Source: Lampris incognitus
Taxonomy: Eukaryota; Chordata; Actinopteri; Lampriformes; Lampridae
Assembly (NCBI RefSeq): GCF_029633865.1
Contig: NC_079213.1
Location: 84,478,803-84,542,802 of the forward strand
Reading direction: 5' to 3'
Length of the DNA stretch: 64,000 nt
Made by a program: the position numbers and the translations under genes. Below are positions 3,969 to 62,819 of this stretch, piece by piece. The notes under the pieces were generated by a model. It had not been told where the DNA came from and did no database searches. It worked only from the letters and a program-made list of their open reading frames with translations. Numbering within the stretch: the stretch's first letter is position 1; each line of letters begins with the position of its first letter.

Positions 3969-4258
3969 GAAATTCACCAACATCCTGACAGCAGGATAAA
4001 ACGAGAAAGAGGAAAGGAAAAGCCCATCACTGACTACTGGCACAAGTGAAAAGAAGGACCTAGTCCTCCAGTCAACTTAGGAGCTACCTCGGTTACGAGG
4101 CTCAGAAAATAATGAGGTTGATCAAGTCTCAGTATTCCCCTAGATCAATGTGACGCCTGATACGCCACACCATGCACTTGGCCCAAAACAACCCTGTCTG
4201 ATAGACACCTAATAACTCACATTAAACTAGTTTGAATGACTCCAACCTCCATCAAAGT

Positions 4259-10786: not shown

Positions 10787-10798
10787 GTCACGGCACCA
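10787..10798 (-). promoter_or_regulatory. primer binding site of Gypsy-1 (tRNA-His)
   Basis: One base inside the 5' LTR the sense strand reads TGGTGCCGTGAC, complementary to the 3' end of vertebrate tRNA-His (...GTCACGGCACCA). Twelve bases match, then the match decays. Gypsy-2 has a longer match to the same tRNA. Confidence 0.8.
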
Positions 10799-10799
10799 A

Positions 10800-11527: not shown

Positions 11528-12138
11528 CTTGCAAAGACATCAGTGTTAGCCAACTGGTATCTATATTCAGGGGTTACCCAGGTTCTACACTGGTCTGTGA
11601 GACAAACGTCAGGGCTAAAAAATTCCATAGGTGTATAAGAACAGGTTGTACATACGAACGTACGATTGATGAATGAGGCTCAATATGTCTTCTAAATGGC
11701 CAGTGAACGATGACTAAACTACGTACCTTTGCAATCACTATATCTACCTCAAGCATAATCCAACACAGCACTTCAAGAGTAAACCTTAAAATCCTTAGTC
11801 TGCAGATTGAGAAATCATCAAACAATGCAAGTCAAGGCACAGAGTGATGAGGGTTCAGGAATGCTTGGCATTGCTGGCAGTGGAATACCTTCCATGTGTC
11901 AGGGCCCAGGTAATGAATAGATGTGTGTTTGTATTGAGTAACATGCTGGTGGAACGGCTTGTACCCGAAGCATCCTCGGTGATTTATGGGGCTGACAGAT
12001 GAGGCCCTGTTCAAGGAACAGTATCTATTGTCATCAAACCAGTCGGAGTTTTTCACACATCACTGTTAACACACAAAACCAATATATTTGCAAAAAGAAC
12101 AATTTCTTCCGGGGGCAAAAAAAAAAAAAAAAAATATA
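11528..12138. other. no gene recognised
   Basis: Unannotated DNA to the right of Gypsy-1. A short segment (about 11640-11690) is the reverse complement of part of 2380-2428. An A-rich run at 12117-12134 abuts the next transposon. Confidence 0.4.
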
Positions 12139-12140
12139 TA

Positions 12141-13337: not shown

Positions 13338-13347
13338 TATATACATA

Positions 13348-14964: not shown

Positions 14965-15130
14965 TGTAAACAAGGTGATTAAAGAGGTTTGAATGGCTTA
15001 GGGATCTGGAAAGGCATTCTGCACCTAAACGGCATTCTGCTGATTTCTGGTGTTTTATTGTCTCTTCGGCTCTGACAGAAAAGGGCTGGCAGGACACTCA
15101 AATGTTGTTAATTAGCCAGGGCCAGACACC

Positions 15131-32955: not shown

Positions 32956-33072
32956 TGTCACGTATCAGGAAAGAACCCAAAAGCAGACGGGACAACCAGG
33001 TAAGGGAAGAATCAAGTCTTTATTGAAGTAACCGATCTCAGGGGTAGAGCAGGAGTCGGCTCAGTGGCAGGT

Positions 33073-33106
<34 letters not shown>

Positions 33107-33393
33107 AAGTCCATGAAAGGCGACGTTCCAGCGAAGACTGGACCACAGTGGAGGCTTTTTAAGGGTGATGATCGCTTTGACGTCAAGGGAGAGCAGCTGA
33201 CTGCTTTGATGGCCAGCTGGTGTCAGGGGCGAACGCTTTGATGTCAAGGGCGAGAGGCTGATTGCTTTGAAGTCAAGGGAGAGAGGCTGTGACAGGGGGG
33301 GGGTCAGCAGGTGTCAGGGTTGAACACTTTGATGTCAAGGGCGAGAGGCTGTGACAGCGAACGCTTTGATGTCAAGGGCGAGAGGCTGTGACG
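32956..33393 (-). repeat. Gypsy-3 3' LTR
   Basis: 438 bp, longer than its partner because a ~38-bp unit (CGCTTTGATGTCAAGGGCGA..) is repeated once more. Contains a (GGCA)n tract at 33069-33104 (as does the other LTR at 36533-36570). Its last base pair reads GACG where the partner has GACA. Confidence 0.85.
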
Positions 33394-33617
33394 GTACCCC
33401 CCCTCCAAGGGGTGCCACCGGGCGACCTACCAGACCCGTCAGGGTGCGTCCTGTGGAAGTCCCGGATGAGGTTCGCTTCCAGGACCAGGTGACGAGGGAC
33501 CCAACACCTCTCCTCCGGGCCATATCCCTCCCAGTCCACGAGATACTGCAGGCCGCGACTGCGGCGATGAGAGTCCAGGAGACGGCGAATGGTGTAAGCC
33601 GGGTGATCGTTGATCAT
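33372..33617 (-). pseudogene. Gypsy-3 chromodomain
   Basis: Frame of 81 codons starting [19 protein letters not shown] and continuing [17 protein letters not shown], a clear chromodomain (aromatic residues Y, W, W). It is out of frame with the integrase just upstream, by one indel. Chromodomains steer integration to marked chromatin. Confidence 0.88.
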
Positions 33618-34760
33618 ACGAGGAGGTGGGGGCGGGGGACTGGAGGAACTAGAGGGCCGGTAGAGACAGGTTTGAGGCAGGACACATGGAAGGAAGGGTG
33701 AACCCGGAGAGTGCGGGGCAGCTTCAGACGGACCACAGAGGGGTTAATGACTTTGACAATGGGAAAGGGACCAATATACCTGGGGGACAGTTTCTTAGCA
33801 TCCGATTTCAAGGGTAGATCCTTGGTAGAGAGCCATACCTGGTCACCGGGGGAGTAGTCCGGAGCAGGGGTGCGATGACGATCCGCCAAGCACTGGTAAC
33901 GGCCGGAGGTCCTGAGCAGTGCGGCACGGGCTCGCTGCCAGGTCCGACGGCACCGACGGACATGGGCCTGGACAGACGGAACCGGAATGTCTACCTCTTG
34001 AGAAGGAAAAAGAGGAGGCTGATAGCCGTAAAGGCATTGAAAAGGGGACAACCCAGTAGCAGACGATGGCAGGGTGTTATGGGCATATTTTACCCAGGGG
34101 AGTTGTGAGGACCAAGAGGATGGGTTGGCAGACACCAGACAGCGGAGGACAGTCTCCAATGCCTGGTTGGCCCTCTCGGCCTGGCCGTTGGTCTGAGGAT
34201 GGAACCCCGATGACAGGCTGACGGTGGCACCGATGGCAGAGCAGAAAGCCTTCCAGACAGCAGAAGTGAACTGGGGGCCACGGTCAGACACTATATCACG
34301 GAGAAGACCGTGGACCCGGAAAACCTCCCTGACCAGCAGATCCGCAGTCTCTCGGGCCGAAGGCAGTTTAGACAAGGGCAAAAAGTGAGCAAATTTACTG
34401 AAGCGATCAACGACAGTCAGTACAACGGTGTTACCGTCGGAGGCGGGCAGACCAGAGACGAAATCCAAGGACAGATGCGACCAGGAATGGTGTGGAACAG
34501 GCAGGGGGCGTAGCAGACCGGCACTGGCCCGGGTGGAGGGCTTATTCTGGGCACAAACAGGACAGGTGGAAACAAAAGACCCAGTATCCTCCGTCATGGA
34601 AGGCCACCAGAACCGCCTGTGGAGGAAGGCTAGGGTACGGGTTACTTCAGGATGGCAGGTAAGTTTGGAAGAGTGAGCCCACTGCAACACACTAGATTGG
34701 AACAAACAAGCACCCAGGGGGACCGTTACCTGGGTCAGGCTGAGTCTGTTGTGCTGCCAT
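33614..34760 (-). pseudogene. Gypsy-3 integrase
   Basis: Frame open from 34972, but true homology starts near 34730. Zinc region: [15 protein letters not shown]...CPVCAQNK; catalytic core: [37 protein letters not shown] and [16 protein letters not shown]; then the C-terminal module. All integrase parts are open in this frame, but the join to gag-protease upstream needs a frame change near 34700. Confidence 0.88.
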
Positions 34761-36404
34761 GACCTCCCTTTCAATGTTCCAGGTGACAGCCGCAGCCGCA
34801 GCCACAGCTGCAACCACACAGGTAGAGGGAACGATGGTGTCAGGTTGGAGCCTGGGCTCAGACTCCTTCCCATGCACACGAGACAGAGCATCGGGCTTGG
34901 CATTCCTGGAGCCAGGGCTTGACACCCGACAGGGGACAGACTGAGGCAGAGCAGACTGGAGGCATAAGGCATGACAGACGGGACTCCAACTTAAAATTCT
35001 GGCCGATGACCAATCAATATGGGGACTATGCTTAACCAACCAAGGATGACCAAGTATAATGGGAGCAAATGGAGAATTGATACCAAAAAAACTTAACTCC
35101 TCTTGATGGTTTCCCGACAACAGGAGGTGCACAGGCTCAGTCTTAGAGGTTATCCGGGCCAGGAGACGTCCATCCAGGGCATTAGCTTCAGGAGGCTGGT
35201 CCAGACTCACAGTGGCAAGACCTAACTGCTTCACAACACTTGCATCCAAAAAGCTTTCATCAGCTCCAGAGTCAATTAAAGCCAAAAGTTTAGTGGACTT
35301 ACCTTTAAAACTGATGGTAGCTTGCAACTGGGTACGTGGACGAGGAGACAGAGGGCAGACAGTTGGGCTCACGAGGATCCTCCCCCTCCCTCGTGAGCCT
35401 GCTAGTTTTGACGGACGGTGAGGGCAGGAGGCGAGAAAGTGACCAGGCTGACCACAATACAAGCAGCTGTTCTCGGTGATGCGGCGTTGACGCTCCTCCG
35501 GGTTGAGCCGGAAGCGGCCGAGTTGCGTCGGCTCCGAAGCTGGGGAAGAGTCACGCCTCGGGCTTTCTCGGAGGACGTCAGCCTCAGGCGAGCGAGCTCG
35601 GCCCCCAGAGTTCGGAGGTGTGGCCCGTGGTAAGTGGTTGTGACCAGGAAAGCGGCGCGTCCTCTCTCGCCTCCGCTCCCTGAGACGGTTGTCCACACGA
35701 ATGGCCAGGGTAACCAATTCCTCCAACCCTCCAGGCTCGGGGTAGGAAACCAATTCGTCCTTTATGGATTCGCCGAGACCGTTGGAAAAGCCGGCCAGGA
35801 GGGACTCGTTGTTCCATCCGCTCTCCGCTGATAGCGTACGGAACTCAACTGAGTAGTCAGCGACGCTGCGGGAACCCTGGCGGAGAGAGATCAGTCTTTT
35901 TGACGCGTCCTTTCCCCGCACGGGATGATCAAAAACCTGGCGAAAAGCAGTGGTGAACTCAGCGTAGGATGAGGAAATGGAGGCCCGCATCTCCCACACC
36001 GCTGTAGCCCAATCCAGGGCGCTTCCCCGGAGAAGACCCACGATGTAAGCGACTTTGGCTCCATCCGTGGAATATGACTGGGGCTGCTGGTTAAACACAA
36101 TCTCACACTGCATCAAAAAAGGGCGACAAAGTCCAAAATCTCCATCATACTTATCGGGCTGGGCAACCCATGATTCCTTAGCCGAAGTTGATGGCGCTGG
36201 GGGCGGCGGAGCTGGAGGGGCGGATCCCGGGCTAGCGGAGGCACTAAGTTGGGTCTGGATTCCGGAGATCTTTGAGCCGAGCTCACGGAGGGCGTCAGCC
36301 ATCTCCTGTAGCGCCTGGCTGTGCTGGCCGTGGACCGATTCCTGGTTGGCTACAGCCTGGCAGACCGTGGCCAGGTCTGTGGTGGAATGGTCTGCTGGGT
36401 CCAT
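34692..36404 (-). CDS. Gypsy-3 Gag-protease, open frame with RT deleted
   Basis: ATG at 36404, 570 codons with no stop. N-terminus coiled-coil-like, then a Pro-rich linker, a capsid region of the sushi/PEG10 type ([20 protein letters not shown]), a CCHC zinc knuckle ([14 protein letters not shown], about residue 312) and a retropepsin site ([13 protein letters not shown], about residue 370). After about residue 470 the frame jumps to the end of RNase H (AKPDALSR), so RT is deleted in frame. The last residues run into the integrase linker before the stop. Related Gag genes were domesticated in mammals, but LTRs here mark a transposon. Confidence 0.88.
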
Positions 36405-36408
36405 AGTG

Positions 36409-36418
36409 GCTGGAACGT
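36409..36418 (-). promoter_or_regulatory. predicted self-primer binding site of Gypsy-3
   Basis: Two bases beyond the 5' LTR the sense strand reads ACGTTCCAGC. The LTR itself contains the exact complement, GCTGGAACGT (36596-36587), starting 30 nt after the first base of a TATA-like TTAAAAAG (36626-36619). So the predicted mRNA would begin with its own primer, as in Tf1 of fission yeast. No tRNA-type TGG site is present. Confidence 0.7.
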
Positions 36419-36420
36419 AC

Positions 36421-36823
36421 TGTCACGTATCAGGAAAGAACCCAAAAGCAGACGGGACAACCAGGTAAGGGAAGAATCAAGTCTTATTGAAGTAACCGAT
36501 CTCAGGGGTAGAGCAGGAGTCGGCTCAGTGGCAGGTAGGCAGGCAGGCAGGCAGGTAGGCAGGCAGGCAGAAGTCCATGAAAGGCGACGTTCCAGCGAAG
36601 ACTGGACCACATTGGAGGCTTTTTAAGGGTGATGATCACTTTGATGTCGAGGGAGAGCGGCTGACTGCTTTGATGGCCAGCTGGTGTCAGGGGCGAACGC
36701 TTTGATGTCAAGGGCGAGAGGCTGATTGCTTTGAAGTCAAGGGAGAGAGGCTGTGATGGGGGGGGGGGGGTCAGCAGGTGTCAGGGGCGAACGCTTTGAT
36801 GTCAAGGGCGAGAGGCTGTGACA
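36421..36823 (-). repeat. Gypsy-3 5' LTR
   Basis: 403 bp; promoter side of the element in the minus direction, with the TATA-like box and self-primer segment described separately. A G run at about 36758-36769 and (GGCA)n at 36533-36570. Confidence 0.88.
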
Positions 36824-36832
36824 GTAAATTTA

Positions 36833-38424: not shown

Positions 38425-38638
38425 AAAGTTCCCATCCAACACCTTTTGGATGAATTGGGACACCGACTGTGAGCCAAACCATCTCCCCAACATCTGTGCC
38501 CGACCTCACTAATGCTTTTATGGCTGAATGGGAGCGAATCCCTGCAGCCATGTTCAAAATCTAGTGGAAAGCCTTCCTGGAAGAGTGGAAGCTGTTATAG
38601 GAGCGAAGGGAGCACCAACTCCATATATTGTAACGTGC
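38425..38638 (+). pseudogene. C-terminal remnant of a Tc1-like transposase
   Basis: Plus-strand text gives HQCPTSL-type residues in one frame and SVPDLTNAFMAEWERIPAAM in another, then WKAFLEEWKLL, the usual tail of a fish Tc1 transposase (...NLVESLPRRVEAVI). Broken by stops. The solo miniature LTR at 38639 is inserted at its end. Confidence 0.65.
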
Positions 38639-38787
38639 ATGGAATAGCAGACACGCTGGCCGCTGGCTGGCAGGTCTGACCCTTTAGTCGAGCGGTTAGC
38701 GATGTCTCCTGCGGTGCGGGCGATATACGGGTTCGCTTCCCGGCCGCGGGAGTTCCTGAGGTTGCGTTATCCCCCGAATTCGCAACA
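38639..38787 (+). mobile_element. solo LTR of the miniature tRNA-like LTR family
   Basis: 149 bp, TGTAACGTGC...TTCGCAACA. A box TAGTCGAGCGG and B box GGTTCGCTTCC lie inside at tRNA-like spacing. Flanked by ATAT on both sides (38635-38638 and 38788-38791), a 4-bp target duplication expected of integrase, not of LINE-driven SINE insertion. Confidence 0.8.
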
Positions 38788-45288: not shown

Positions 45289-45427
45289 TGTAGGGAATTC
45301 GGGAGACGACGCAACCACAGGAACTGCCGCGGCCGGGAAGCGAACCCGTATCGTCCGCACCGCAGGAGACATCGCTAACCGCTCGATTAGAGTCAGACCC
45401 GCCAGCTAGCTTGTCATGCACGTTACA
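45289..45427 (-). mobile_element. solo LTR of the miniature tRNA-like LTR family
   Basis: Starts TGTAGGGAATTC and ends CACGTTACA; 139 bp, reverse orientation. Flanked by ATAT on both sides (45285-45288 and 45428-45431). Same family and same ATAT target as the copy at 38639. Confidence 0.82.
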
Positions 45428-45979: not shown

Positions 45980-46483
45980 TGCAGCAAATTCAGGTGGCAG
46001 TCCAGGAACCAGCGCCATAACCGGGACGCGAACCCGTATCTCCTACACCGCGGGCGACAATGTTAACCAGTCGACTAAAGGGACCGATCCGTTAGCCAAC
46101 GGCTAACGTGTCTACTTATTCGTGTACGTTACACTTATTTATCCGTGCACGTTAACCAGTCGACTAAAGGGTCCGACCCGCTAGCCAAGCGCTAACTTGT
46201 CCGTGCACATTACACTACCCCCCCCTCCTTTGCGAAGCGCTTCCCCGCGCTTCAGCATATCAATTCCCTCACGCCTCTGGGCGCACGCGCTTCCGATGAG
46301 CTCACGGTCTCACATCCCACTTCTGACACCAATGCAGTTAATTCGGGGGCAGCCGCGGACACCGCCACAGCCGGGACAGAAACCCGTATCTCCCACACCG
46401 CAAGCGACAACGTTAACCAGTCGACTAAAGGGTCTAACTCCTTAACCAAGGGCTACCGAGCCTATTCATCCGTGATCGTTACA
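45980..46483 (-). mobile_element. miniature tRNA-like LTR element, LTR-internal-LTR
   Basis: Sense is minus: LTR 46483-46333 (151 bp), tRNA-Leu primer site (46332-46315, TTGGTGTCAGAAGTGGGA), internal region of ~118 bp, polypurine tract (CAAAGGAGGGGGG), then a partial LTR (about 46148-46214) and a full LTR (45980-46133, 154 bp). Each full LTR holds A- and B-box-like sequence. Nested in ISL2EU-1. Confidence 0.8.
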
Positions 46484-46856: not shown

Positions 46857-48590
46857 TGTAGTGGTTATGGGGCTACATAATTCCCCTTATTGAGCTAGTA
46901 GGAACGTTAGTTTACAGCTGCTGTTTCCTCGGTTCGGGTTTACAGTGACACATTTCCGCTGCGCGGGTTTTTTTGTTGTTGTAATGATGGAAGGAATAAA
47001 TGGTGCACGTTGTGTAGCCGAAAGACAAAGTTGTCACGACTCCTGCTTGAGCTCCTCTACACTGGTGACCCCGACGTTTGTCTCTTGGTAGTTATCAGAG
47101 ACAATCTTTCGAACGAACATGGTTGACGAAATCAACGCGGTTTCTCTCAAATTGCCAGAGTTCTGGGAGTCATCGGCAACGACATGGTTCGCCCAGGCGG
47201 AAGCGCAGTTTGCTATACGCAAAATAACGGATGATGCTACTAAATACTACTACGTGGTATCGGCGCTCGGGTGTTCGACTGCAACTAGAGTGGTGAGTCT
47301 CCTTACAAATCCTCCGGCGGCAGACAAATACAAGGGGCTCAAAGACCACCTCTTGAAGATTTTTGAACTTTCCGACGCTGAGAGGGCCCACCGTCTCTTT
47401 TCTCTGCAAGGCTTGGGTGACAGCAAGCCATCCGAGCTCATGGACAAAATACTGAATCTGCTGGGACCGGCGCACACACCTGATTTCCTCTTTGTACAAC
47501 TATTTCTGCGACAACTGCCTGCTCAGGTGCGGGCCGCTTTGGCTAACACCAGCATTACCGATTGCCGCAATTCACGTCAGCGCTCTGGGAGGAGATCGCC
47601 GCGGGTTTGGGGGTGAGGCTCCATCGCACCACAGCATATTACCCTCAGGCGAATGGATTGGTCGAGAGGTTCCATCGCTCGATGAAGGCCGCATTGCGGC
47701 CTACCCTCAAGGACGACCGCTGGGTCGACAAACTGCCTTGGGTCATGCTTGGGCTCAGGACGGCTCCCAAGGAGGACCTCCAGTCCTCATCCGCCTAACT
47801 GGTCTACGGACAGCCACTTCGGGTCCCGGGGGATTTCCTTCCCACCGCCACAGCTCCCTGGTCCGCCAGATGCCAACGGACTGCGCTGCAGGAGGAAGCC
47901 AGGGCTTTTGCACCGGTCCCCACTTCTCAGCATGGCGGCTCTCAGTCCTATGTCCCCACGGAGCTGCGGTCGACGGAGTATGTTTTCATCCGTCACGACG
48001 CGCACCGCGGTCCCCTGCAGCCACCCTACGACGGCCCATTTCGGGTACGGGACACTGGGGATAAGCACTTTGTGGTGGAGGTTGACAGCAGGCTGGAGCG
48101 GGTTTCTGTGGACCGCCTCAAGCCTGCTCACCTGGACTTAGACCGCCCTGTTGGTCTTGCCCTGCCCCCACGGCGGGGGCGCCCCCCGGCTCTGCCCCCT
48201 CCCCCGGCGAGCCGCCCCCTGCTTCCCCAGCCCCTCCCTTTTCCCGGTCCAGCTGTGAGGACTCTGCTGCTTTGCCTGCGGTTAACCAGTCCCCAGCTCC
48301 TGTTCAGCGGAGCCGTTGGGGCAGAGAGATCCGCCCCCCTCGCCACACTGACTTTTCGTATTAAGGCGAATTCTGGGGGGACGTGTGTAGTGGTTATGGG
48401 GCTACATAATTCCCCTTATTGAGCTAGTAGGAACGTTAGTTTACAGCTGCTGTTTCCTCGGTTCGGGTTTACAGTGACACACTTGCGCTGCGCGGGTTTT
48501 TTTGTTGTTGTTATGGTGGAAGGAATAAATGGTGCACGTTGTGTAGCCGAAAGAGAAAGTTGTCACGACTCCTGCTTGAGCTCCTCTACA
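46857..48590 (+). mobile_element. mini Gypsy-type LTR retrotransposon, deleted (gag joined to integrase end)
   Basis: 205-bp LTRs at 46857-47061 and 48386-48590 (TGTAGTGG...CTCTACA), differing at about five bases. Flanks repeat CAAT (46853-46856 and 48591-48594). A primer-site-like TGGTGACCCCGACG follows the left LTR and a polypurine tract (CTGGGGGGACG) precedes the right LTR. Total 1734 bp. It can only move with help from an intact relative. Confidence 0.92.
47119..48385 (+). pseudogene. gag fragment fused to integrase C-terminal part
   Basis: From ATG 47119, about 150 codons of Gag (LPEFWESSATTWFAQAEAQF, IFELSDAERAHRLFSLQGLG). Near 47560 it joins, in another frame, the integrase end: SALWEEIAAGLGVRLHRTTA, YYPQANGLVERFHRSMKAAL and, later, VDRLKPAHLD followed by a Pro-rich tail. 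Protease, RT, RNase H and the first part of integrase are deleted. Confidence 0.88.
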
Positions 48591-48594
48591 CAAT

Positions 48595-48902
48595 CATCAA
48601 GAAAATGTTATTGCAGTGCACCGTGTTCTTCAGATAACAAACAAAATGCCCCCTATTTGAGTTTCCATGATTTTCCTGCAGACGCAGAAATACGTGCCCA
48701 TTGGGTGAGGGCGATCAGAAGAGATGAGGGGGCGAGTTTTAAAATCCTTCGTGGGAGTACCTACGTGTGTAGTCAACACTTTGCCCCAGATGATGTATAT
48801 ACATCAGCTAGTGGATGGATTCGAGTTAAACAAGGAGCAGTGTCGTCTAGATTCCAGTGGAATAATTGGGGTGAAGGTAGGAAGGTAGGAGGACAGTGTT
48901 AA
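48595..48902 (+). pseudogene. THAP domain of ISL2EU-1 transposase
   Basis: Continues from 46847. Shows the THAP pattern: CYCSAPCSS (C-x4-C type), FHDFPADAEIRAHWVRAIRR with the conserved Trp, and YVCSQHFAPDDV (C-x2-H). The exon probably ends at a GT donor near 48880. The domain binds the transposon ends in known THAP transposases. Apart from the LTR insertion the frame is clean. Confidence 0.88.
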
Positions 48903-50331: not shown

Positions 50332-50509
50332 CTTCATAATCAAATAGGTACCGTTCGATGAAGAATTTGTAGCCTTTGTTGAGTTTGGACTGTTTCGTTA
50401 ATGCAAATGTTTCAGCAATCCGTGGTACATCGTCTAGCCGTATTTCAGGCAGGTTTGTGAGCGACTGTGTAAACGCCTTAGTCAGTCCGGAAGTTAGCAT
50501 ACCCTGCAA
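50332..50509 (-). pseudogene. first exon of the ISL2EU accessory gene (opposite strand)
   Basis: Minus-strand frame MQGMLTSGLTKAFTQSLTNLP then FIERYLFDYEG, ending at a GT splice donor (GTACGT) at 50331. I associate this N-terminus with the second, divergently placed protein of ISL2EU elements (YqaJ-nuclease-like in other species). No later exons are seen, so the gene is truncated. Function assignment is from memory and tentative. Confidence 0.5.
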
Positions 50510-50636: not shown

Positions 50637-52560
50637 CCAAACTCCCGCACCACGGGCGACTACGTTAACCAGCCGACTTAAGGGTCCGACCCGTTAGCTA
50701 AGGGCTAGCAAGCCTAGTCATTCGTGGTCGTTACACTATCCCTCTCCTACGGGAAGCGCTTCCCCGTGCTTCAGCATACCAGCTTCTTCACGCCTCTGGG
50801 CGCAGACGCTTCTGATGGACTCACGGTCTCACCATCCCACTTCTGACACCAATGTAGTGAATTCGGGGGCAGCCGGGAACGCTGGAAGCGAACCCTGGTC
50901 TCCCGCACCAAGGGTGACTAGGTTAACCTGTCGACTAAAGGCGCCGACCCATCAACCAAGGGCTAGCGAGTCTACACATCTATGGTCGTTACACTACCCC
51001 CCTCATTCAGGAAGCGCGCGCTTCAGCATACCAGTCCCCTCATGCCTCTGGGCGCACGTGCTTCCGACGGCCTCACGGTCTCAACATCCCACTTCTAACA
51101 CCAATGTAGCTAATTTGGAGGGCAGTCAGGAACCGCCGCAGCCGGGATCAAAACCCAGGTCTCCCGTACCACAGGTGATTGCACTAACCAGTAATCTAAA
51201 GCATCGTTGACTGGTTAGCGCAGTCGCCCGTGGTCCAGGAGACTGGGGTTCGCTTCCCGGCTGCCCCTGAATTCGCTCCATTAGTGTCAGAAGTGTGATG
51301 GTGAGACCGTGAAGCCATCAGATGCACGTGCGCCCAGAGGCGTGAGGGCGCTGATATGCTGAAGTGCGGGGACTTGCTTCCCAAAGGAGGGGATAGTGTA
51401 ACGACCATGGATGACTAGACTCGCTAGCTCTTGGCTAATGGGTCGGACCCTCTAGTCGACTGGTTAACGTAGTCGCCTGTGGTGCAGGAGAACAGGGTTC
51501 TTGTCCTGGCTGCGGTGGTTCCCAACTGCCCCCCGAATCCCACTTCTGACACCAATGTAGCGAATTCGGGGGTCAGCCGGGAACCGCCGCAGCCAGGACG
51601 CGAACCCGGGTCTCTCGCACCATTTGCGACTATGTTAACCAGTCGACTAAAGGGTTCGACCTGTTAGCCAAGGGCTAGCGAGTTTAGTTATCCGTGGTCG
51701 TTACACTACCCCTGTCACGCCCCGTCTGGATAGTTAAGTTATCTTTTTGTTTCTCCCAGTGTTCTTTGTCTTGTACTTCCTGTTTTATTTTGATACTCAC
51801 CTCTTGTCTCGTTTCAGGTCCTTTACTTCCTGCCCTCATGTGTCTCCCTCCTGTGTGATTACCTAGCCTGCCCTAATGTGTTGCACCTGTGTCTCATTGT
51901 CTCCCCTCCTCCAGAGTATATAGTCTTAGTGTTCCCTTCCTTCTGTGCCAGTTCGTCTTGTTCCTTGTTGCAGCGCTCCAGCATTTTTTTCCTTGTGTGA
52001 GTTTCTTGGGCCCTATAGTTTCCTGAACTGTTTTTTGCCTTTTTGACCTTGCCTTTCACCTGCCGATTTGGACACTGTTGCCTTGTTATCTGATCACCTG
52101 TGTACCGACCTCATTCTTATTAAAAGGACAGATTTTTGTGAACTGAGACTGAGTCTGCGTTTTGAGTCCCAGCCTGTTTTGAGTCCCAGCCTTCGGGAAG
52201 CGTGTCCCCACGCTTCAGTTCAGCATATCAGCTCCCTCACGCTTCTGGGCGTACGCGCTTCCGACGGTCTCACGGTCTCTCACCATCACACTTCTGACAC
52301 CATTGTAGTGAATTCAGCGGGCAGCCGGGAACCGCCGCAGCCAGGACGCAAACCCGGATCGGATCCTTTAGTCGACTGGTTAATGTAGTTGCCCGTGGTG
52401 CGGGAGGTCTGGGTTCGCGTCCCGGCTGCCCCCCGAATTCACTACACTGGTATCAGAAGAGAGATTCTGGGGTCAGCTGGGAACCGCCGCAGCCAGGACG
52501 CGAACCCGGTTGTCCCGCACCGTAGGCGAATACGTTAACCAGTCGACTGACTGCCCCTGA
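50637..52560. mobile_element. rearranged array of the miniature tRNA-like LTR family
   Basis: Units in order: partial LTR (-) to 50735; internal 50736-50852; LTR (-) 50853-50993; internal 50994-51104; partial LTR (-) 51105-51206; partial LTR (+) 51207-51280; internal (+) 51281-51396; LTR (+) 51397-51537; primer-site piece (-) to 51555; LTR (-) 51556-51705; an unrelated LTR-like insert (51713-52188); internal (-) about 52190-52303; a chimeric LTR, half minus and half plus (52304-52446); and a final partial LTR (-) to about 52555. Primer sites (TTCTGACACCAA on plus) mark each internal region. Confidence 0.8.
51713..52188 (+). repeat. LTR-like insert, probably solo LTR of another retroelement
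   Basis: Begins TGTCACGCCCCG; has a TATATAG box near 51919 and an ATTAAA near 52119; ends around a duplicated TTTTGAGTCCCAGCC. It interrupts a miniature-LTR internal region. Right boundary uncertain; no target duplication identified. Confidence 0.5.
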
Positions 52561-52791
52561 CTAATTCGCAACAATATTTACCATTGAACTTCAAAAGGGC
52601 ATGGGTCAGCACATAAATAGACCAAAGTGGACAACCGTTGGGCAAATAATCACAAAACTTGCATCATAAAACAACCAAGCCAGAAATACCCTCGCGCCCC
52701 GAGTGGACAGTGGTGTCAGCGCTGGGGCCCGAGGTAAAAGCGTACCGGAGGTGGCAAGCTCCCGGACGAGGGAACGACCTCTTGCAGCTAT
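52561..52791. other. flank of ISL2EU-2; no gene recognised
   Basis: GC-rich in its second half. If ISL2EU-2 inserted into an older element, this and 62820-63077 would once have been adjacent. Confidence 0.4.
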
Positions 52792-53378: not shown

Positions 53379-54548
53379 CTAATATTTCAATAGTGGATAG
53401 CTCTGTTCTGACACATCATCTTGATAACAGGAAAATGTGTGGGTTTATATTGCTTCCCACATGTATGACATATCCTCATGTGTCCAGTGAGGTTTGGGCG
53501 ACTCTACCTGATCATGACTACGACGTGAAGCCCCTTTCTGTGGAAGACCAGCTTGACGCAGTAAAGAAACGCATCGCTTTCCTGGAGAACGAAAATAAAA
53601 AGCTGAAAAGTGAGCGTTTTGGTCTAGAACGCTTCCAGTGTGCGCCCAATCTGATCAGGTTTTACACTGGTTTTAAGGATTACCACACCCTCAAAGCACT
53701 CTTCCTAGCTCTACAGCTTACTGCAGAGTCCATGGTGCGATGGACTCAAATGCAAAGGAACAGCCATAACCAGGGAACACATTTCTGTGTCTGGCTTCCA
53801 TGCAGAGCATTTATTGCTGATTGATCAGTTTTTCCTGTTCTTGTGCCATGTGAGGCAGGGCTTTTTTGCTCTGGATTTATCTGTACGATTCAATGTGTCG
53901 CCGGCCACAGTCAGCAGGAACTGTATGACGTGGGCCAACTATTTGCTCTTTATGTTAGGGACCCTCCCAATATGGCCTAGTAGAGCAGCAGTAGACGAGC
54001 TAATGCCACCAGTATTCAGGGAATTCTACCCAAACACAAGAGTGATACTAGACTACGCAGAGATCCGCATCGAGACAGCTAGTTCGCAGGTTTTGAACAC
54101 CATGACATACTCCCATTATAAAAGTAACACTACACTGAAATCCCTAATTGGGATCACTCTCTCAGGGTCAGTTAGCCTGGTAAGTAATCTATACACAGGA
54201 TGTATTTCTGATAAGGAGATAACTAAGAGGTCAGGTGTTCTGGACCTCTTAGAGTCAGGTGATGAGGTCATGGCCGATAAGGGCTTCCTTCTCAAAGACC
54301 TGCTCGATGAAATAGATGTAAAACTTGTCATCCCTGCATTTTTAGGCCCAAGTGGACAGTTTAGCTGTGATGAGCTCACAGACACACAGAGTATTGCTGG
54401 CTTGAGAATACACGTCGAACGGTCAATAAGACGCATAAAGGAGTACCACATTTTTGATGGAGCCATACCCCTTTCACTAAGTGGAACAGTCAACCAACTG
54501 TGGACTATGTGTGCTCCCCTAACAAATTTTCAGGGACCACTGTTTTAA
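53170..54548 (+). pseudogene. ISL2EU-2 DDE transposase, THAP exon lost, one frameshift
   Basis: An acidic exon (IAEEDEEEDEEEHEE-like, about 53200-53268) ends at a GT donor; after a (TA)n-bearing intron an AG acceptor near 53430 starts the main exon. This has a coiled coil (QLDAVKKRIAFLENENKKLK), a helix-turn-helix (FNVSPATVSRN) and a DDE_Tnp_4 core: VILDYAEIRIE, VMADKGFLLKD and RIHVERSIRRIK. A one-base indel near 53768 shifts frame between the first (to 53824) and second part (from 53787). A THAP stub (ATG TCG TAC TGC TGT, near 52894) is followed by a stop. Not functional as it stands. Confidence 0.88.
53333..53374. repeat. microsatellite (TA)n
   Basis: About 21 TA units inside the presumed intron of the ISL2EU-2 transposase. 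Confidence 0.98.
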
Positions 54549-54898: not shown

Positions 54899-55268
54899 TG
54901 TAACCCGTACTTTGCGTTCGGCCGTCGTCTCCCTACACGCCCTGGGACTCAGCGTTGTGTTTTTTGTAGTATTATGTTTGCGTGGAAAAGGAAGGAGGCA
55001 GAGGTTTGGGATCGTGGCTGAGACCTGGACACTTTATTGGCACTCGCTTGCACTTCACCTCTCATCTATCAGCTGGCCGCTGGCCTCATCATAATCACAG
55101 CTTCCGGCAGAAGAAATAAAAACATTTGATCAACGTAGCATTTTGCCCGGGACAAGAACTAGGGGTACAGTGTTGCAAGAGGGACAAACATCGCCATTTG
55201 CGGCATTCCCAGGGGAACATACAGCGTAACAGTGCCACCCTGTGGCGGATTTACATTACTACCTTACA
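54899..55268 (-). repeat. Gypsy-2 3' LTR
   Basis: 370 bp. Differs from the 5' LTR by several substitutions and a net 7-bp length difference, including one small gap near GCTGGCCGCTGGCC. Confidence 0.93.
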
Positions 55269-55473
55269 TCTACCCCTTCTTTAATTGATGGCGTCCCAGC
55301 CATCAGACCAAACAAAACAAAACAAATAAAACTTATGAGCATAAACATTAAAACAGATCACACTGAAAGTGACGTATTAATACCATGAGTTGCATATGAA
55401 ATGTAGATGTGTAAATGCAATCAAAGTAAATAAACCATTAATAAAAACTAGTTTATTTTTTATTTTTTGTGGA

Positions 55474-58400
55474 TTATACGTGCCCTGCTGCTCTCTCTGC
55501 TATGGCCCTCTGCCACAATGTCCAGCCCCTCTCTATCTTCTGCTGTTCCCCTTTTGATCTCACCACCTGTGAATCGTAAGACAGTTTCTTTGGGGGACGT
55601 CGAGTTCTCTGTGGGTTCCTCCTCAGGCTGGGGCCATCAAGTGCGTTGGTGTCGCTGACATTTATGTCCTCTTTCCCCCCTTGACTCACTTTTTCGGCTT
55701 CCTCCTCCATTACCTCCATGCCATCCACCTCCCAGTCCCCCATGTCAGACTCAACTCCTGCACTTGTTGCTGCACCAGCCCGCTCCACCGGAGGAAACAT
55801 ACACTGTGTAAGAAGGTTGCGGTGAACCACTCTCTCTTTTTCACCATCCTCTGTTTGGACCACATACACAGGTATACTGGGTTGTTTCTTCACCACAATG
55901 TATGGGCGTGACTCCCATCTGTCTCCCAGTTTCTGCCGTCCCTCCACATGACATATTTTGACCAAGACTCTGTCCCCTGGGCTGAAACCTTGACTCTTTG
56001 CCTTTTGATCATAGTACCTTTTCTGCTGCTCTTTTGCATGTCGTGAGGCCTGGTTAGCCTGAGTATAAGCTTCCGACAGACAGTCATGCAGGGTCTGGAC
56101 ATATTCACTATACTCACATGGCTCTTTGGTGGTAGAAAGCCCAAAAATCAGGTCGACTGGGAGTCGTGGATGTCTACCAAACATTAGGTAATACGGTGTG
56201 TACCCAGTAGAGTCATGTTTGGTGCAGTTATACGCATGTGTCATTGCATCCACATACTCATGCCAGTGGGGTTTCAGGTGAGGCTCTAGTGTCCCCAGCA
56301 TGTCCATGAGAGTCCGGTTGAACCTTTCGGTGGTGCCGTTACCCTGGGGGTGATAGGGGGTTGTGTGTGTCTTAGTGACACCAGTACACTTACACAACTC
56401 TTTCACCACAGCACTTTCAAAATTACGCCCCTGGTCTGCATGTAGTTTTGCTGGGAATCCAAACCGACAGAAAAAGTTCTTCCACAGTACCTTCGCCACT
56501 GTACAGGCTTTTTGGTCTTTAGTGGGATAGGCCTGGGCGTACCGGGAGAAGTGGTCAGTAACAATAAGCACATTTTCTATGCCTCCCTTTGATTTCTCCA
56601 GAGTCAGAAAGTCTACACACACAAGTTCCATAGGAGCGCTGCTGTGAATACTGACCAGGGGAGCCCTGAGGCCTGCAGTTGGAGTCTTTCTGAGGCAGCA
56701 CCTTTCACACTGCTCACACCAAGCCTTGATTTCCTGGAACATCTTAGGCCAGTAAAATCTCTCCCTTATCATCTGCAGCGTTCTCTCAAACCCTAAATGC
56801 CCTGAGTCATCATGAAGTGCAGTCTTGACGGATGTGTGAAATCTCTCTGGTAGTACCAGCTGCTACTCCCCTTTGACAGTCTGGGACCTGACGATACATT
56901 ATTCCATCCCTTACTAATAACCTCCGCCACTCTTTTAAGAGAAGGCAAACCTGCCTGCCACCACCAATCCTCTCGCTGCGGCTCGGTTTTTGGTTCACAC
57001 TTTTAAAGTGCAAAACAGGACTGATTACAGGATCCTCTTTTTGCCCTGCACGAATCTCCTGTTTTGTCAATGCAGGTAGAGAGTCCATCCCTACATCTTG
57101 ATAGGATTCACCGAGCGTGTGTGACAGAGGTTCTTGATGCTCAGGTCCCTCCGAAGCGGAGCTTTCCAGGTGTTGGGGAGATTGTTCCACTACACACCTT
57201 TGTACTTTGGCTGATACAAGCTGAGGGCAGGTTTGCAGGACTTGGGTGACCTCCTGGTTAGACAGCCGGGAGAGGGCATCAGCGTTTGCATTATTCTGTC
57301 CCCTTCGATACTGCACATCAAAATCAAATGCTGACAGCCGAGACACCCACCCATTTTGCAGACGACATGACATACTTGAGGGGGTTATTGTCTGTCTGGA
57401 CTGAGAACTTGCGCCCATATAGATGGTCATAGAACTTGTCGGTCACTGCCCATTTCAGAGCGAGGAACTCTAGTTTGTGTGCAGGATACCTCGTCTCTGC
57501 TGGGCTCAAGCCTCTGCTGCCATAAGCTATGACTCTCTCGACTCCGTCCTGAACTTGGGCTAATACAGCACCAAGCCCCTCCCCCGAGGCGTCAGTCTGG
57601 AGCAGAAAGGGTAGGCTGTAGTCTGGATAGCCTAACACTGGAGCAGTTGTCAATCTTTCCCTCAGTGACTGAAAAGCCTCCTCACACTCATCAGTCCAGA
57701 CAAAGGGCGGGTCAGGCACTAACCTCTTCTTCCCCCCTCTCCGTTTCTTTCTAGGGTCACCAGCGGTAAGGCGGTACAGGGGCACGGTTACGGTGGAGTA
57801 ACTGCACACAAACCGCCTGTAATATCCGGTGAATCCCAGGAACTGAAGCACCTCTTTACGATTCGTGGGCCTCGCCCAGTCCTTGACTCTGCTGATCTTC
57901 TCTGGGTCTGTCCTGATGCCCTCCGCAGACACCAGGTGACCCAAGTAGTGCACCTCCTTTCTCACAAGCTAACATTTGGAAGGCTTCAACTTCAAGCCAT
58001 GCTCCTTCAGTCGATCGAACACCAGCTGCAGCCTCTCCAGATGCTCATCAAAGGTTTTAGAGAATATGATCAGATCATCAAGGTAGATCAGGAGATGGGT
58101 GGAGTTCAGATCGCCAAAGCAGCAGGTCATGAGTCTCTGGAAGGTGTACGGAGCGTTTTGAAGGCCGAAAGGCATTCTGTTGGCTTCAAACAGCCCCATG
58201 GGAGTGCTGAATGCTGTTTTGTGTTTTTCCTGCTCCGCCACCTCTACCTGCCAGTATCCAGATGTGAGATCAAGTGTTGAGAAATACTTTGCTTGACCCA
58301 GAGCCTCCAGGGCCTCCTCTATTCTGGGCAGTGGAAATGCATCTCTTGTGCTGCAGGCGTTAAGCCTTCGGTAATTGATGCATAATCTTAGTGATCCGTC

Positions 58401-59599
58401 TTTCTTGGTAACAATCACTACTGGCGAAGCATATGGACTCTTACTAGGCCTGATAACCCCTGCTGTTTCCATTTCTGTCAGCAACTTCCTCACATCCTGC
58501 CACTGTGAAGGGGGAATCTTGCGGTACAGGAGTCGAAAGGGCTTTGAGTCGACCAGGGGGATTTCGTGCTGCACTGTTTTTGTGTGGCCGTAGTCCATTG
58601 AGTGCTGTGAGAACACCCCCATAATCCTCTCCACAAGCTCTTTTAGGAGGGCGCGCTGGTGCTCATTCTCCACTGCTGCTTCACTTATGTCCACCCCACC
58701 ACTGCTCACAACTTGGTTCAGACACAGGTATGTCTCTTTGTTCCCCTCATTTTGATGACAACCCTGTTCCGTGGCTGAAAAATCCACAACACTGTCCACC
58801 AGGAAGGCGCTGGCCAGCTGTGCGTGTGGTTTGATTGTGACAGTTTGTTGGGACAGGTTCATCACTCTGACAGGAGCACAGCCTTTCTTCACATCTGCAA
58901 GAACTTTGGCGACCATAAGGTCCTGGGGAAGCCGAATGGAGGCGTGGCCTTCAATTAGCGCTGTGTATGTCTTTCTTTGTGGGCCAGCTTTGATTTTGCA
59001 CATTAAGTCCATCTCTTTCCCTCCCGGGATGCGTATTTTACGGCCAGTGTACACAGCAGGGCCCACCATGTCGTCTGCTCCTGTATATTCAGTGTCGCCA
59101 GTTTCCAGTAAAGCTGTGTACCACTCTGGATGGCTTTCCTTCACCCGTTGAAGATATTGCTCCCCATAGGTTGCTTGGAGGTGCCTCCTGGCGGCATGGA
59201 CGACATTAGTTCCCACAAGCAGTGGGACGGAGGAGCGATACTCGGAGTCAGGGACAACAAAAGCCGGCACACTCTGGAACTCTTTCCCCAGCACTTTCAA
59301 CTTAATGCGCAGGACACCAGAGTAAGGCACATCCTGACCTGCTGCACTTGCCAGGGGTATTTTAGAGGGCCGTAGTTTCTGTCCATGGAGGTCAGGGTGG
59401 TTGCACCAGTATCCATGAGTAATACTGGTTACCTGAGAGCCGGAATCGATAAGAGCCCTGCACTTTAATCCATTGACTTCCACCTCACCCTCATTCCTGG
59501 GACCCACAATAGGAATGTCCTCTACTCCATCATCAGTATCGCTCACCTACAGTGGGGGGTCTTGCTGCTTGCCCATGGTTGCCCCAGTTACCACAGGCT
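55474..59599 (-). pseudogene. Gypsy-2 pol: protease, RT, RNase H, integrase with several breaks
   Basis: Read from the gag overlap: TAG nonsense at 59549-59547; protease (ALIDSGSQVTS); RT with LLIYLDDLIIFS (YLDD); TAG at 57968-57966 just after PSK C; RNase H ([26 protein letters not shown]); a frameshift near 57350; the RNase H end (NADALSRL); a second frameshift near 56810-56860; integrase (CEQCERCCLRK, VCVDFLTLEKSKGG, HADQGRNFES, YHPQGNGTTERFNRT) to 55474. Domain order is normal. At least two stops and two frame changes make it inactive. Confidence 0.92.
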
Positions 59600-59612
59600 C
59601 TAGGCGTTTAAA
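59571..59612 (-). promoter_or_regulatory. predicted -1 ribosomal frameshift signal at the Gypsy-2 gag stop
   Basis: Sense strand: slippery heptamer T TTA AAC (59612-59606) in the gag frame, then GCC and the gag stop TAG. The 7-nt spacer GCCTAGA is followed by a 9-bp stem: GCCTGTGGT (59598-59590), a 10-nt loop (59589-59580), ACCATGGGC (59579-59571), all pairs satisfied with two G-U wobbles. A -1 slip enters the pol frame. UUUAAAC is the slippery site used by coronaviruses. Confidence 0.8.
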
Positions 59613-61627
59613 TGCTGCATTGAGTTGGGCGTGGTGCTCTCCGCGGAGGTCGCAGCCTGGGGTCGGTGAGTCCAGGGCGGACTGGGATCTGGGAGCACCG
59701 CTCGACATACTCGGGCTATATGCCCTTGCTTCCCACACCGGTGGCAAACAACACTGGAGCCCTGAGTAACTGTTCTGGGAGATGGTTGGGGCCTTAGTGG
59801 GGGTGCAGGGGCTGGTGCAGGGGTAGGTGCAGCAATTCTCAACTCAAGGTGAGCCAACTTGGTCATCTGTTCTTCTTGGCTAGGAGCTAATTTCTTGACC
59901 ATATCTTTAAGCTCTGTCCACTCTGAAGTGTGTTTTGACCTCTCTGACCTCATATTGGTATCACATTCTGATGTGACCTGCACCTGGGTGAGCGCTTTCT
60001 TTGTCTTGTGTTGTGACTGGAACTTCTGAGTCTCTTTTGCAAGGTTTCTAAGCTCTGCTTGCAGCTCCCGGAAACTCAAAAGCCTGGGCTTCATTGGTGC
60101 GATCCTTGCATACACCATCTCATCCATAAGCCCTCTTAGAAACTGTTGAGTGAGTTTACTATCACGATCAGGAAATTGCCTGCCCCCTCTCTGACTTTCC
60201 TCTACCGCTCTCAGTGTTGCCTCCAGAGCAATAGCATAAGAGCAGGCAGACTCTCCGGACCTCTGGCTGCGCTCATAGAAGTCGGCTAGTGGATCAAGTG
60301 AGCCTTGTGTGTCGCTGTATTCAGCCCTGAGCTCCTCAAACGCCTTCTCTGGAGTCTGGTCGTGGGGGGGTAGGTTCAGGACTAGCTTCCTGGCCTCACC
60401 GCTCAGGTGTCGCACAACAGTCGAAAAGCGGAGGTGTGTGGGGAGCTCGATTGCCTCCAGAAGGTACTGCATATCACGAACCCAGTCTTCTGCAAGTATT
60501 TTGCTGTCTGGCTTGCCAGTGAAGATTTGGACATTTTTTACCTGATGAGTTTGCATGAACCCACCATATGCAGCTGGTGGAAGGGTTGTGTTGGCTGCGG
60601 CTCTGACGGGAGCATTCATTGGGGGCTCATACGGACGTGGGTGCATGTGCGGGGTGGTGGATGGGTGTGGTGGAGGGTGTTGTGGGAGTGTGTTGTGGTA
60701 CATGACAGCTCGAGGGTCTGAGGCAGGGGCTGTGTGGTTAGGGGCTACATGTTGCACTGCTAGTGGGGTGGTCACCTCTTGGGGGTAGAGGGCAGCAGGC
60801 TGTGACATATGCACCTGGGGGATTGATCCATGCTGCAAACTTTGAAGGGTCTGGCCAGTAGAAGAGGGGTAGCTCATAATGTTTATCATTGGTGGCATTT
60901 GAAAGCTTGGCATGAGGGCCTGGGGCACAGGGAGATTATATGCAGGACCAGTGTAGACCTGGGGTTTAGGCTCGGCAGCAGGGCTTTGGTAAGGGGAGAT
61001 GTCTGGGTGAGTCATGGTAGGCTGCTGTACAGTTTGCATTTCTGTGGAGGTGGGGCATGAGAGGCTGTGAATGGGCAAAGGGTGTGTGTGCTGGTTCACA
61101 CTGGCTTGGGCCGGGGGATTAGGTTCCACTAATATCTGTACAGCTGGAAGGGATGCACTGGGCAGGCTGTAGTCTGGCCTGCTGTTTCGGTGGATTGGTT
61201 TGGCGGCTGGGCTGCTGTCAAAACATAGTGAGGGTGCTTGCATTGGAGCTCTAGGGGCTGGCAAGGTGGGTGCATGAGCTGGAGTGGAGTAGTGAATAGG
61301 GTAAGGTGACAGTATTGGGGGTGGTGGAGTGAGTGGTGCAATTAGTCCTGGGTATGGGGGCCGCTGACTGCTGTGGTGGTCTTGAGGGAGGATCAGCTGT
61401 TGGGTGGTGGTGGGGCTATTGAAGTAGTTGTTAAGCTTTGGCCTCACTGATTGCTGTTGATTTGCAGCACTGGTGGTTGTTACGCCCTTGCTTGAAAGGT
61501 GGGGTTGTGTCTGGGCTGGAGAGTCACAGTTGTGGCTGGCTGTGGGCATCGGGGGCAGTTGGGAACCCGGTCTGGCAGCAGAGGCACCTTCTTGCTTTGA
61601 CTGATAATCTGCATAGTCACTGAACAT
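59600..61627 (-). CDS. Gypsy-2 Gag
   Basis: Frame open from 61774; the ATG at 61627 (MFSDYADYQSKQEG) looks like the better start because the first 49 residues are unlike Gag. About 675 residues. The N-terminal ~340 residues are Pro/Gln/His-rich and low complexity; then a capsid-like region (VQIFTGKPDSKILAEDWVRD..., about two thirds along), a Lys-rich stretch and one CCHC knuckle (CHRCGKQGHIARVC). Stop TAG at 59602-59600, one codon after the slippery site. No internal stop. Confidence 0.9.
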   Translation of the reverse strand: MFSDYADYQSKQEGASAARPGSQLPPMPTASHNCDSPAQTQPHLSSKGVTTTSAANQQQSVRPKLNNYFNSPTTTQQLILPQDHHSSQRPPYPGLIAPLTPPPPILSPYPIHYSTPAHAPTLPAPRAPMQAPSLCFDSSPAAKPIHRNSRPDYSLPSASLPAVQILVEPNPPAQASVNQHTHPLPIHSLSCPTSTEMQTVQQPTMTHPDISPYQSPAAEPKPQVYTGPAYNLPVPQALMPSFQMPPMINIMSYPSSTGQTLQSLQHGSIPQVHMSQPAALYPQEVTTPLAVQHVAPNHTAPASDPRAVMYHNTLPQHPPPHPSTTPHMHPRPYEPPMNAPVRAAANTTLPPAAYGGFMQTHQVKNVQIFTGKPDSKILAEDWVRDMQYLLEAIELPTHLRFSTVVRHLSGEARKLVLNLPPHDQTPEKAFEELRAEYSDTQGSLDPLADFYERSQRSGESACSYAIALEATLRAVEESQRGGRQFPDRDSKLTQQFLRGLMDEMVYARIAPMKPRLLSFRELQAELRNLAKETQKFQSQHKTKKALTQVQVTSECDTNMRSERSKHTSEWTELKDMVKKLAPSQEEQMTKLAHLELRIAAPTPAPAPAPPLRPQPSPRTVTQGSSVVCHRCGKQGHIARVCRAVLPDPSPPWTHRPQAATSAESTTPNSMQHLNA

Positions 61628-62167
61628 TTTGATATATTTTTTTTCTAAATCACTATGACTGGTGTAACTGTTGGTGTCAAAACAGATGACTATTAATGAT
61701 TCACTGTGTCCACAGAATAAGTTTAGCTGTGTATGCAAAATCTCCTTTTTTCCAGTAAATATATCAAAAAACAATAATCACTATCAACTCAAAACTCACA
61801 TTAAACTTGAGTCAAAACCAGATGGTCAATACACAACCCTTAACCAAAACCAAAAAAATTATGAATGATATCAGCTTAATGTTAAACACAGTGTTCCTAT
61901 AGCAGGATCTCACATAGCACACTTTTACACAACTCAAATAACAGTTAAGTTTATCGAAATATCATAAAAAGTCCTCAAATGGATATAGCAAGCTTTCAAC
62001 AGTCTTTAAAGGATATTTGAAGAGGTGAGTATCTTGCCAATGCTGCAGCGCCGATGACAGTAGTTCAGTCCACCACACTGTCCAGTCACTGAAGGTAACG
62101 CAGTTCAATGCAGCAGCAAAGGCGAGGACGCGAGTCTCTGTATCTCCTTGGATCTCGAAGCACCACG

Positions 62168-62185
62168 ATCCGGGTCACGGCACCA
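62168..62185 (-). promoter_or_regulatory. primer binding site of Gypsy-2 (tRNA-His)
   Basis: Three bases inside the 5' LTR the sense strand reads TGGTGCCGTGACCCGGAT, matching the complement of the vertebrate tRNA-His 3' end at 17 of 18 bases as I recall that tRNA. Confidence 0.85.
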
Positions 62186-62188
62186 TGA

Positions 62189-62551
62189 TGTAACCCGTAC
62201 TTTGCGTTCGGCCGTCGTCTCCCTACACGCCCTGGGACTCTGCGTTGTGTTTGTTGTAGTATGATGTTTGCGTGGAAAAGGAAGGAGGCGGAGGCTTGGG
62301 ATCGTGGCTGAGACCTGAACACTTTATTGGGACTCGCTTGCACTTCATCTCTCATCTATCAGCTGGCCTCATCATACTCACAGCTTCCGGCAGAAGAAAC
62401 AAAAACATTTGACCAACGTGGCATTTTACCCGGGACAAGAACTAGGGGTACAGTGTTGCAAGAGGGAGAAACAAAGCCATTTGCGGCATTCCCAGGGGAA
62501 CATACAGCGTAACAGTGCCACCCTGTGGCGGATTTACATTACTACCTTACA
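62189..62551 (-). repeat. Gypsy-2 5' LTR
   Basis: 363 bp; partner of 54899-55268. Followed by TGAT, the target duplication. Confidence 0.93.
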
Positions 62552-62819
62552 TGATTAAACAGCTTCTTTGAATACAGCCCTGTGTGTGTGTCTCTCCTCA
62601 CTGGCACAGGAGAGTCAGAAAGAACTCGAAAAAGAAAAGATCCAGCTTAGTTTTCATATTGTGGTAAATGACGGTAGGTGCTCGAGGTTGGTAGTCCAAA
62701 CCATGTTTGCTGCAGGCCCCGGCTGCATTGATTTCCGATTGAGTAAGAAGGGGGCGTGGCTAAGTTCCCACCACTTGGTTTTTTAAAAACCCAAGATGGC
62801 CGCGGCGTGAAATGGGCGT
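62552..62819 (+). other. right end of ISL2EU-2
   Basis: Non-coding sequence ending in the terminal inverted repeat (about 62740-62819) that matches, reverse-complemented, 52792-52870. Confidence 0.75.

Follow-up and report, generated by a model that had tools for sequence, protein, structure and literature searches.

Palindromic and tRNA-tailed copies of a Helenus-type miniature LTR retrotransposon in the genome of Lampris incognitus

What kind of element fills positions 50637-52560 of a 64,000-nucleotide stretch of the Lampris incognitus genome (the whole stretch analysed, hereafter the window), and how did its copies come to lie in both orientations? Direct and inverted repeats of up to ~150 nt occupy this span, in which a first-pass annotation had recognized repeated units of LTR, primer-binding site (PBS), internal region and purine tract. 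That layout of the unit was found as stated, but the span proved to be a palindromic chain and not a row of simple units; the chain continues to ~52573, and ~51713-52189 is an unrelated insert. Read on the minus strand from 52573, window 50644-52573 is a series of LTR, PBS and internal segments in alternating orientation: an inverted U5 end followed by LTR 58-142, a fragment of inverted LTR, LTR 94-150, and PBS with internal region; then the insert, a complete LTR (51705-51556), a PBS, and an inverted LTR with internal region (51538-51281); and finally a fold-back at box A followed by PBS-internal-LTR twice, the last LTR being truncated. LTR positions are numbered on the complete copy at 51556-51705. 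The segments of the chain and the other copies of the family in the window are as follows.

50644-50735, minus strand: truncated LTR (positions 1-92)
50736-50852, minus strand: internal region, PBS at 50835-50852
50853-50993, minus strand: LTR
50994-51104, minus strand: internal region, PBS (1 mismatch) at 51087-51104
51105-51263, both strands: head-to-head fold-back LTR with arms 51105-51171 (minus, LTR 84-150) and 51206-51263 (plus, LTR 59-116), turning at box A
51281-51396, plus strand: internal region, PBS (2 mismatches) at 51281-51298
51397-51538, plus strand: LTR (positions 1-142), inverted partner of 51556-51705
51538-51555, minus strand: PBS at the tail-to-tail junction, then TTC, which is present in tRNA-Leu and absent from the internal region
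51556-51705, minus strand: complete LTR (150 nt), the coordinate standard
51639-51649, minus strand: box A, TAGTCGACTGG, LTR 57-67
51596-51606, minus strand: box B, GGTTCGCGTCC, LTR 100-110
51713-52189: unrelated insert within an internal region, approximate limits set by reading
52190-52303, minus strand: internal region, PBS (2 mismatches) at 52286-52303
52304-52429, both strands: head-to-head fold-back with arms 52304-52360 (minus, LTR 94-150) and 52359-52429 (plus, LTR 47-117)
52464-52573, minus strand: inverted U5 end (52549-52573), then, in the direction of this strand, LTR 58-142 (52464-52548)
45980-46483, minus strand: complete LTR-internal-LTR unit, the cleanest in the window; flanks ATAA and TTAC, no exact duplication
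38629-38783, plus strand: solo LTR, flanks ATAT and ATAT
2853-3108, plus strand: internal region and LTR, 5' LTR missing
45289-45410, minus strand: partial LTR

As part of the explanation that we favour, the cluster is very probably a chain of both palindrome kinds, head-to-head and tail-to-tail. A possible first exon on the minus strand (~50336-50500), for which no Pfam or PDB match was obtained, starts ~140 bp from the cluster, so these repeats may sit in a gene promoter.

The family is abundant. The exact PBS 18-mer occurs at 4833 sites (2452 and 2381 on the two strands) in the 1.48-Gb genome, and its reversed control at none; a 48-base U5-PBS-internal junction matched 846 and 823 sites at up to 2 mismatches, again with no control match. 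With up to 3 mismatches allowed, the 18-mer matches the window 8 times, where 0.13 would be expected; the match at 56705-56722 (3 mismatches), inside Gypsy integrase coding sequence, is probably due to chance. Twenty 10-kb stretches around exact PBS sites, together with the window, yielded a sample of 64 LTR matches; loci L001-L008, which lie inside or beside L009-L014, were excluded before counting. By reading, 22 of the 24 exact PBS sites in the fetched stretches belong to the family, and the other two (L009) to another LTR element.

The unit consists of an LTR of ~150 bp on either side of an internal segment of ~115 bp. TG...CA ends, a PBS and a purine tract (GGAGGGG) just 5' of the next TG were found in the full units L011, L014, L016, L018 and L021; these five and window 45980-46483 have two LTRs around one internal region, and L015, L019, L023, L024 and L026 also retain both LTRs, though their LTRs are cut or the internal region is gapped. 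In a variant at L030, L039, L042 and L046, no PBS is present and the LTR passes directly into the terminal part of the internal region. Target duplications were counted in the 17 units with both ends readable, the flanks being read by eye and L051, found later, being excluded. An exact 4-bp duplication was present in 7 units, compared with a mean of 2.7 after shuffling of the right flanks (P=0.004), and 13 had one with at most one mismatch (P=0.046, same shuffling); age, recombination or misread ends may explain the 10 units in which the exact duplication is missing. Target sites are mostly NTAN (ATAT, GTAT). Both features proposed earlier as a check, full LTR-internal-LTR units and 4-bp duplications, were therefore found, and the first-pass annotation was right in identifying a TRIM, or miniature LTR element, whose LTR resembles a tRNA, and in its PBS and purine tract.

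Elements of this kind are not new, and the statement of the first-pass annotation that it knew no description was mistaken: the tested structural traits fit Helenus (Kojima 2024, PMC10886601), the class being set by the structure given in the available part of that description and not by sequence. Helenus (TRIMp3) is defined there as TRIMs with tRNA-derived LTR sequence, a PBS and a polypurine tract (PPT), and 4-bp duplications in animals. In Lampris, likewise, two LTRs flank a PBS and PPT in a protein-free element below ~1000 bp (~430 bp in the five full units named above), the LTR contains tRNA-derived sequence, the duplication is of 4 bp as in animal families (exact in 7 of 17), and the PBS is complementary to a host tRNA, tRNA-Leu. 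The likeness extends to boxes A and B, to thousands of copies and to the tandem arrays seen in zebrafish; in the portions of the description consulted, the primers of vertebrate families are tRNA-His, Leu or Lys, 5575 LTRs and 2618 internals are counted in zebrafish, and fish members include zebrafish LTR-11_DR with its relatives and the coelacanth LTR1_LCh and LTR2_LCh (PMC10886601). Helenus is also mentioned in the accessible part of a 2026 meeting report (PMC12859917). The plant TRIM Cassandra similarly carries a small-RNA gene promoter in its LTR, but there it is 5S rRNA instead of tRNA, and pol III transcripts are reported for it in the same partial source (PMC10886601). No 5S rRNA, the trait of Cassandra and Ajax, was among the Rfam matches to E 1 for the window stretch or to E 10 for L011, L014, L036 and L044. 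Taken with the mechanism set out below in full, we hold it highly probable that the element belongs to the TRIMs of Helenus type, being a non-coding LTR retrotransposon ~0.4 kb long with a tRNA-derived stretch in its LTR.

The palindromes are not confined to the window. Genome-wide, an exact-arm pattern spanning box A detected 45 palindromic loci, with none for the control, and most of their turns lie immediately upstream of the box; applied to two U3 sites and to box B, the test yielded 3, 4 and 12 loci. The probes occur 20, 13, 14 and 20 times in the 64 sample LTRs, and after correction for probe frequency the excess of turns at box A is 6.3-, 5.5- and 3.8-fold (P=7e-5, 5e-5 and 7e-6), values that are rough because only 64 copies enter them. 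The farther arm ends at LTR 36 or later in the 45 loci, a limit partly built in by the reach of the pattern (~LTR 33), and the fit is poor for 8 of the 45 turn strings. Twenty of these loci were fetched (L029-L038 and L039-L048, ten each) and 25 were not; L032 is probably an ordinary LTR. In the PBS-anchored sample, 5 of the 20 PBS-bearing family clusters in the fetched stretches are of mixed orientation (L010, L012, L017, L022 and L025), and L027 has a short inverted arm. Among the five head-to-head pairs of this sample (three in the window, L025 and L027), the farther arm ends at LTR 59, 47, 58, 56 and 85, and none includes U3, whereas three of four tail-to-tail pairs reach LTR 1-3 (window 51397-51705, L010 and L022). 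These contents, in small numbers, are those of the two strong-stop intermediates of reverse transcription. Matches to miRNA families were also returned; they scored below gathering thresholds, and those over family segments reflect the palindromes.

Could such palindromes have formed in a Helenus-type TRIM only once it was inserted, through gene conversion, recombination or slippage during replication, and not by reverse transcription? We consider this improbable, though several observations are in its favour. The turn site at box A is itself an inverted repeat, CTAACGGGTCGGACCCTTTAG, which with neighbouring inverted copies is a proposed substrate for such events; its fold is not unusual (z=-1.29). 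Turns also occur in U3 and at box B, and some mixed-orientation clusters may be chance neighbours. Arm identity gave a mixed result as a test of one-molecule origin: at 7 of 20 fold-back loci the arms are 0.88-0.96 identical over at least 72 aligned bases, and at many others they are no closer than random copies, which suggests either template switching between two molecules or later change. A hairpin at the turn site and an RNA end cannot be separated here as the cause of the turn.

The target sites argue against an origin after insertion, as inverted U5 termini lie exactly at 4-bp duplications in L025, L029, L036 and L051. L029 reads GTAT, inverted U5-R, R-U5, PBS, internal region, LTR, GTAT; L036 is a palindrome with two U5 ends between CTAT and CTAT; GTAT flanks on both sides a unit with a fold-back first LTR in L025; and L051, found later, also has a GTAT/GTAT duplication. 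Three of the five readable fold-back duplications (L025, L029 and L036) are exact (P=0.025), that of L034 is off by one base, and L030 shows no match. In our reading, an inverted U5 end that abuts the duplication was joined by integrase. The LTR ends are TGTAACG...CGCTACA, the U3 end differing from the inverted U5 end (TGTAGCG) by ~1 base in 7.

The primer site speaks against the same alternative, since the tail-to-tail junctions of the window and L022 have tRNA-like bases after the PBS and a tRNA copy is joined to an inverted LTR in L051. The PBS matches tRNA-Leu plus CCA at 17 of 17 letters. At 51538-51555 and in L022, the PBS is followed by TTC. Genome-wide, there are 34 PBS-TTC sites, 13 of which read TTCGAA and one TTCAAA. 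The first six of the 13 (L049-L054) were fetched, and all six consist of family LTR, PBS and then tRNA-Leu sequence; counted from the first PBS base, a strict alignment matches 29, 35, 33, 40, 48 and 65 nt. Copied tRNA-Leu behind the PBS shows, on the testimony of these genomic copies, that tRNA-Leu is the primer. The identification of the 18-mer as complementary to the 3' end of tRNA-Leu(CAA) is upheld for tRNA-Leu, with a CAA-like acceptor end, but not fully for the isoacceptor: the four shorter captures score higher with human Leu(CAA), whereas the two longest are closer to human Leu(CAG) (39 versus 37 for L053, 50 versus 34 for L054). One exact pattern, searched through the genome, gave 0 matches to a source tRNA gene. 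L053 ends at what we take to be tRNA position 38, and L051 seems by eye to end there too, although two cases prove little; m1G37 would block copying at that point. Plus-strand synthesis in HIV-1 usually halts ahead of m1A58, although a minority of products extend further (PMC13191261, in part), and retroviruses copy the tRNA, whereas Ty1 and Ty3 do not (PMC7472051, in part). Judging from the captured copies, the enzyme used by the Lampris element, unlike those of Ty1 and Ty3, does copy it.

On our reading, both the palindromic and the tRNA-tailed copies are strong-stop cDNAs that became integrated. In the proposed mechanism, pol III, placed by boxes A and B, would start near LTR 37-45 and continue across both the internal region and the 3' LTR, and a Gypsy-type element would supply Gag, reverse transcriptase and integrase. 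Folding back or changing template would be frequent for both strong-stop cDNAs. The minus-strand product, which comprises R-U5 and stops at the 5' end of the RNA, would yield head-to-head palindromes lacking U3; the plus-strand product, U3-R-U5-PBS with copied tRNA in some cases, would yield tail-to-tail ones. Integrase would accept both products because the U3 end and the inverted U5 end are nearly alike. We lean, by a modest degree, towards the joint reading in which palindrome turns mark the RNA 5' end, a pol III start lying 12-20 nt ahead of box A, and tRNA-tailed copies ran past the modified A58 of tRNA-Leu and then stopped, jumped or self-primed; near-alike LTR ends would have let both be integrated, and the genomic copies would thus preserve a record of the promoter and primer that the family uses. 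The same two cDNA intermediates are known from HIV-1, where, in the parts of the reports at hand, minus-strand strong-stop DNA self-primes at the TAR stem-loop in R (PMC4668388), to which the modest inverted repeat at box A is comparable, and minor plus-strand products extend past tRNA position 58 (PMC13191261). Those are viral side reactions, whereas here, as we read them, they are integrated genomic copies of a non-coding element.

How firmly can the RNA start be tied to pol III? In the window copy, the tRNA-Asp match scores 17 against 7.7 ± 1.2 in 300 dinucleotide shuffles and 8 on the other strand, and LTR 56-110 aligns ungapped and colinear over 55 nt with tRNA-Asp 7-61 (z=7.7). Across four LTR copies, z was 3.2-7.7 for tRNA-Asp (7.7, 4.1 and 3.2 being listed for the three besides the window copy) and 4.9-6.8 for tRNA-Gly, which scores alike, and at most 1.0 for tRNA-Lys and tRNA-Leu. 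Boxes A and B in a tRNA-Asp-like stretch, as described earlier, were thus confirmed in copy 51556-51705, with tRNA-Gly fitting about equally. A functional tRNA gene in the LTR was rejected, as neither covariance models (Rfam) nor ARAGORN returned a tRNA from the family sequences searched, which indicates that the promoter part is kept and not the tRNA fold. In yeast, box A lies 12-20 nt downstream of the start (PMC7528018, consulted in part); applied to the box A position here, this rule predicts a pol III start at LTR 37-45. The palindromic and tRNA-tailed copies, read as strong-stop products, likewise suggest an RNA 5' end near LTR 37-45, and on these grounds we infer that the family probably uses pol III. 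For Helenus in general, pol III transcription is expected but not demonstrated in the available text of the 2024 description, where both pol III use and primer tRNAs are motif-based inferences (PMC10886601).

The element could instead be a Helenus-type TRIM transcribed by pol II from U3, its boxes A and B being relics of a founding SINE or tRNA. Loss of the tRNA fold agrees with this, as does the conservation of box A, which ranks an unremarkable 38th among 140 LTR windows; avoidance specific to T4 is also absent, because runs of T4 (4 versus 19.8 expected) and A4 (2 versus 8.5) are equally depleted and T4 avoidance is uninformative as a pol III sign. Nevertheless, we judge pol II transcription unlikely, since box B, in fifth place among the 140 windows, is one of the best conserved and the head-to-head arms avoid U3, ending where a start directed by box A would fall. 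That the family is a tRNA-derived SINE spread by a LINE is scarcely credible: a tRNA-like stretch with boxes A and B would fit, but a tRNA SINE would lack LTRs and would show 3' tail repeats and 7-20-bp duplications, the behaviour named at the outset as able to overturn the LTR-element reading. This is contradicted by LTR-internal-LTR units, TG...CA ends, a PBS and a PPT at the expected places, 4-bp duplications around solo LTRs (window 38629, L016 and L017) and the captured tRNA-Leu primer.

Whereas the element kind itself has been known since 2024, we did not find its palindromic and tRNA-tailed copies described: among the open-licence PMC papers listed there was no report of integrated copies of either sort for Helenus or TRIMs, and the available part of the Helenus description does not mention them (PMC10886601). 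The Lampris copies preserve the primer itself, and dozens of natural events allow an estimate of where the RNA starts. Were our reading correct, genome sequence alone could suffice to map primer tRNAs and start sites for silent LTR elements, pol III use by the Helenus group would be directly testable, and integrase would be able to insert cDNAs with two U5 ends.

Gypsy elements, proposed as mobilizers of animal Helenus in the accessible part of PMC10886601, are present in the window. The four LTR elements delimited there have primer sites that differ from the family PBS, two of them being of tRNA-His type. The first, a Gypsy element at 3233-11523 (minus), has 724-bp LTRs that are 99.4% identical with ends TGTAAC...GTTACA, a CCTG duplication and a long pol frame with reverse transcriptase, RNase H and integrase; its PBS matches tRNA-His. 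A second Gypsy element at 54899-62552 (minus) has the same PBS type, LTRs of ~370 bp (94% identical) and an ATCA duplication if the LTR begins at TG. The remaining two have LTRs of ~206 bp (46857-48591, plus, 97.6% identical) and ~403 bp (32956-36824, minus, 96.3%). Outside the window, L018:3273 is a Gypsy element with a Leu-like PBS, a near-match to that of the family, and an RNase H domain (~3270-6000), making it a candidate helper class. A different LTR element in L009, with LTR-end copies 3.7 kb apart (1218-1616 and 4964-5362), carries the same exact tRNA-Leu PBS. The window also contains a DDE_Tnp_4 transposase (53709-54548), probably from a Harbinger-like DNA transposon, and a THAP domain (48423-48902) that probably belongs to a THAP pseudogene or gene. 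Nested inverted transposon copies at 12135-15000 and 56-1698, with open reading frames at 352-1468 and 14004-14669, are presumably Tc1-like.
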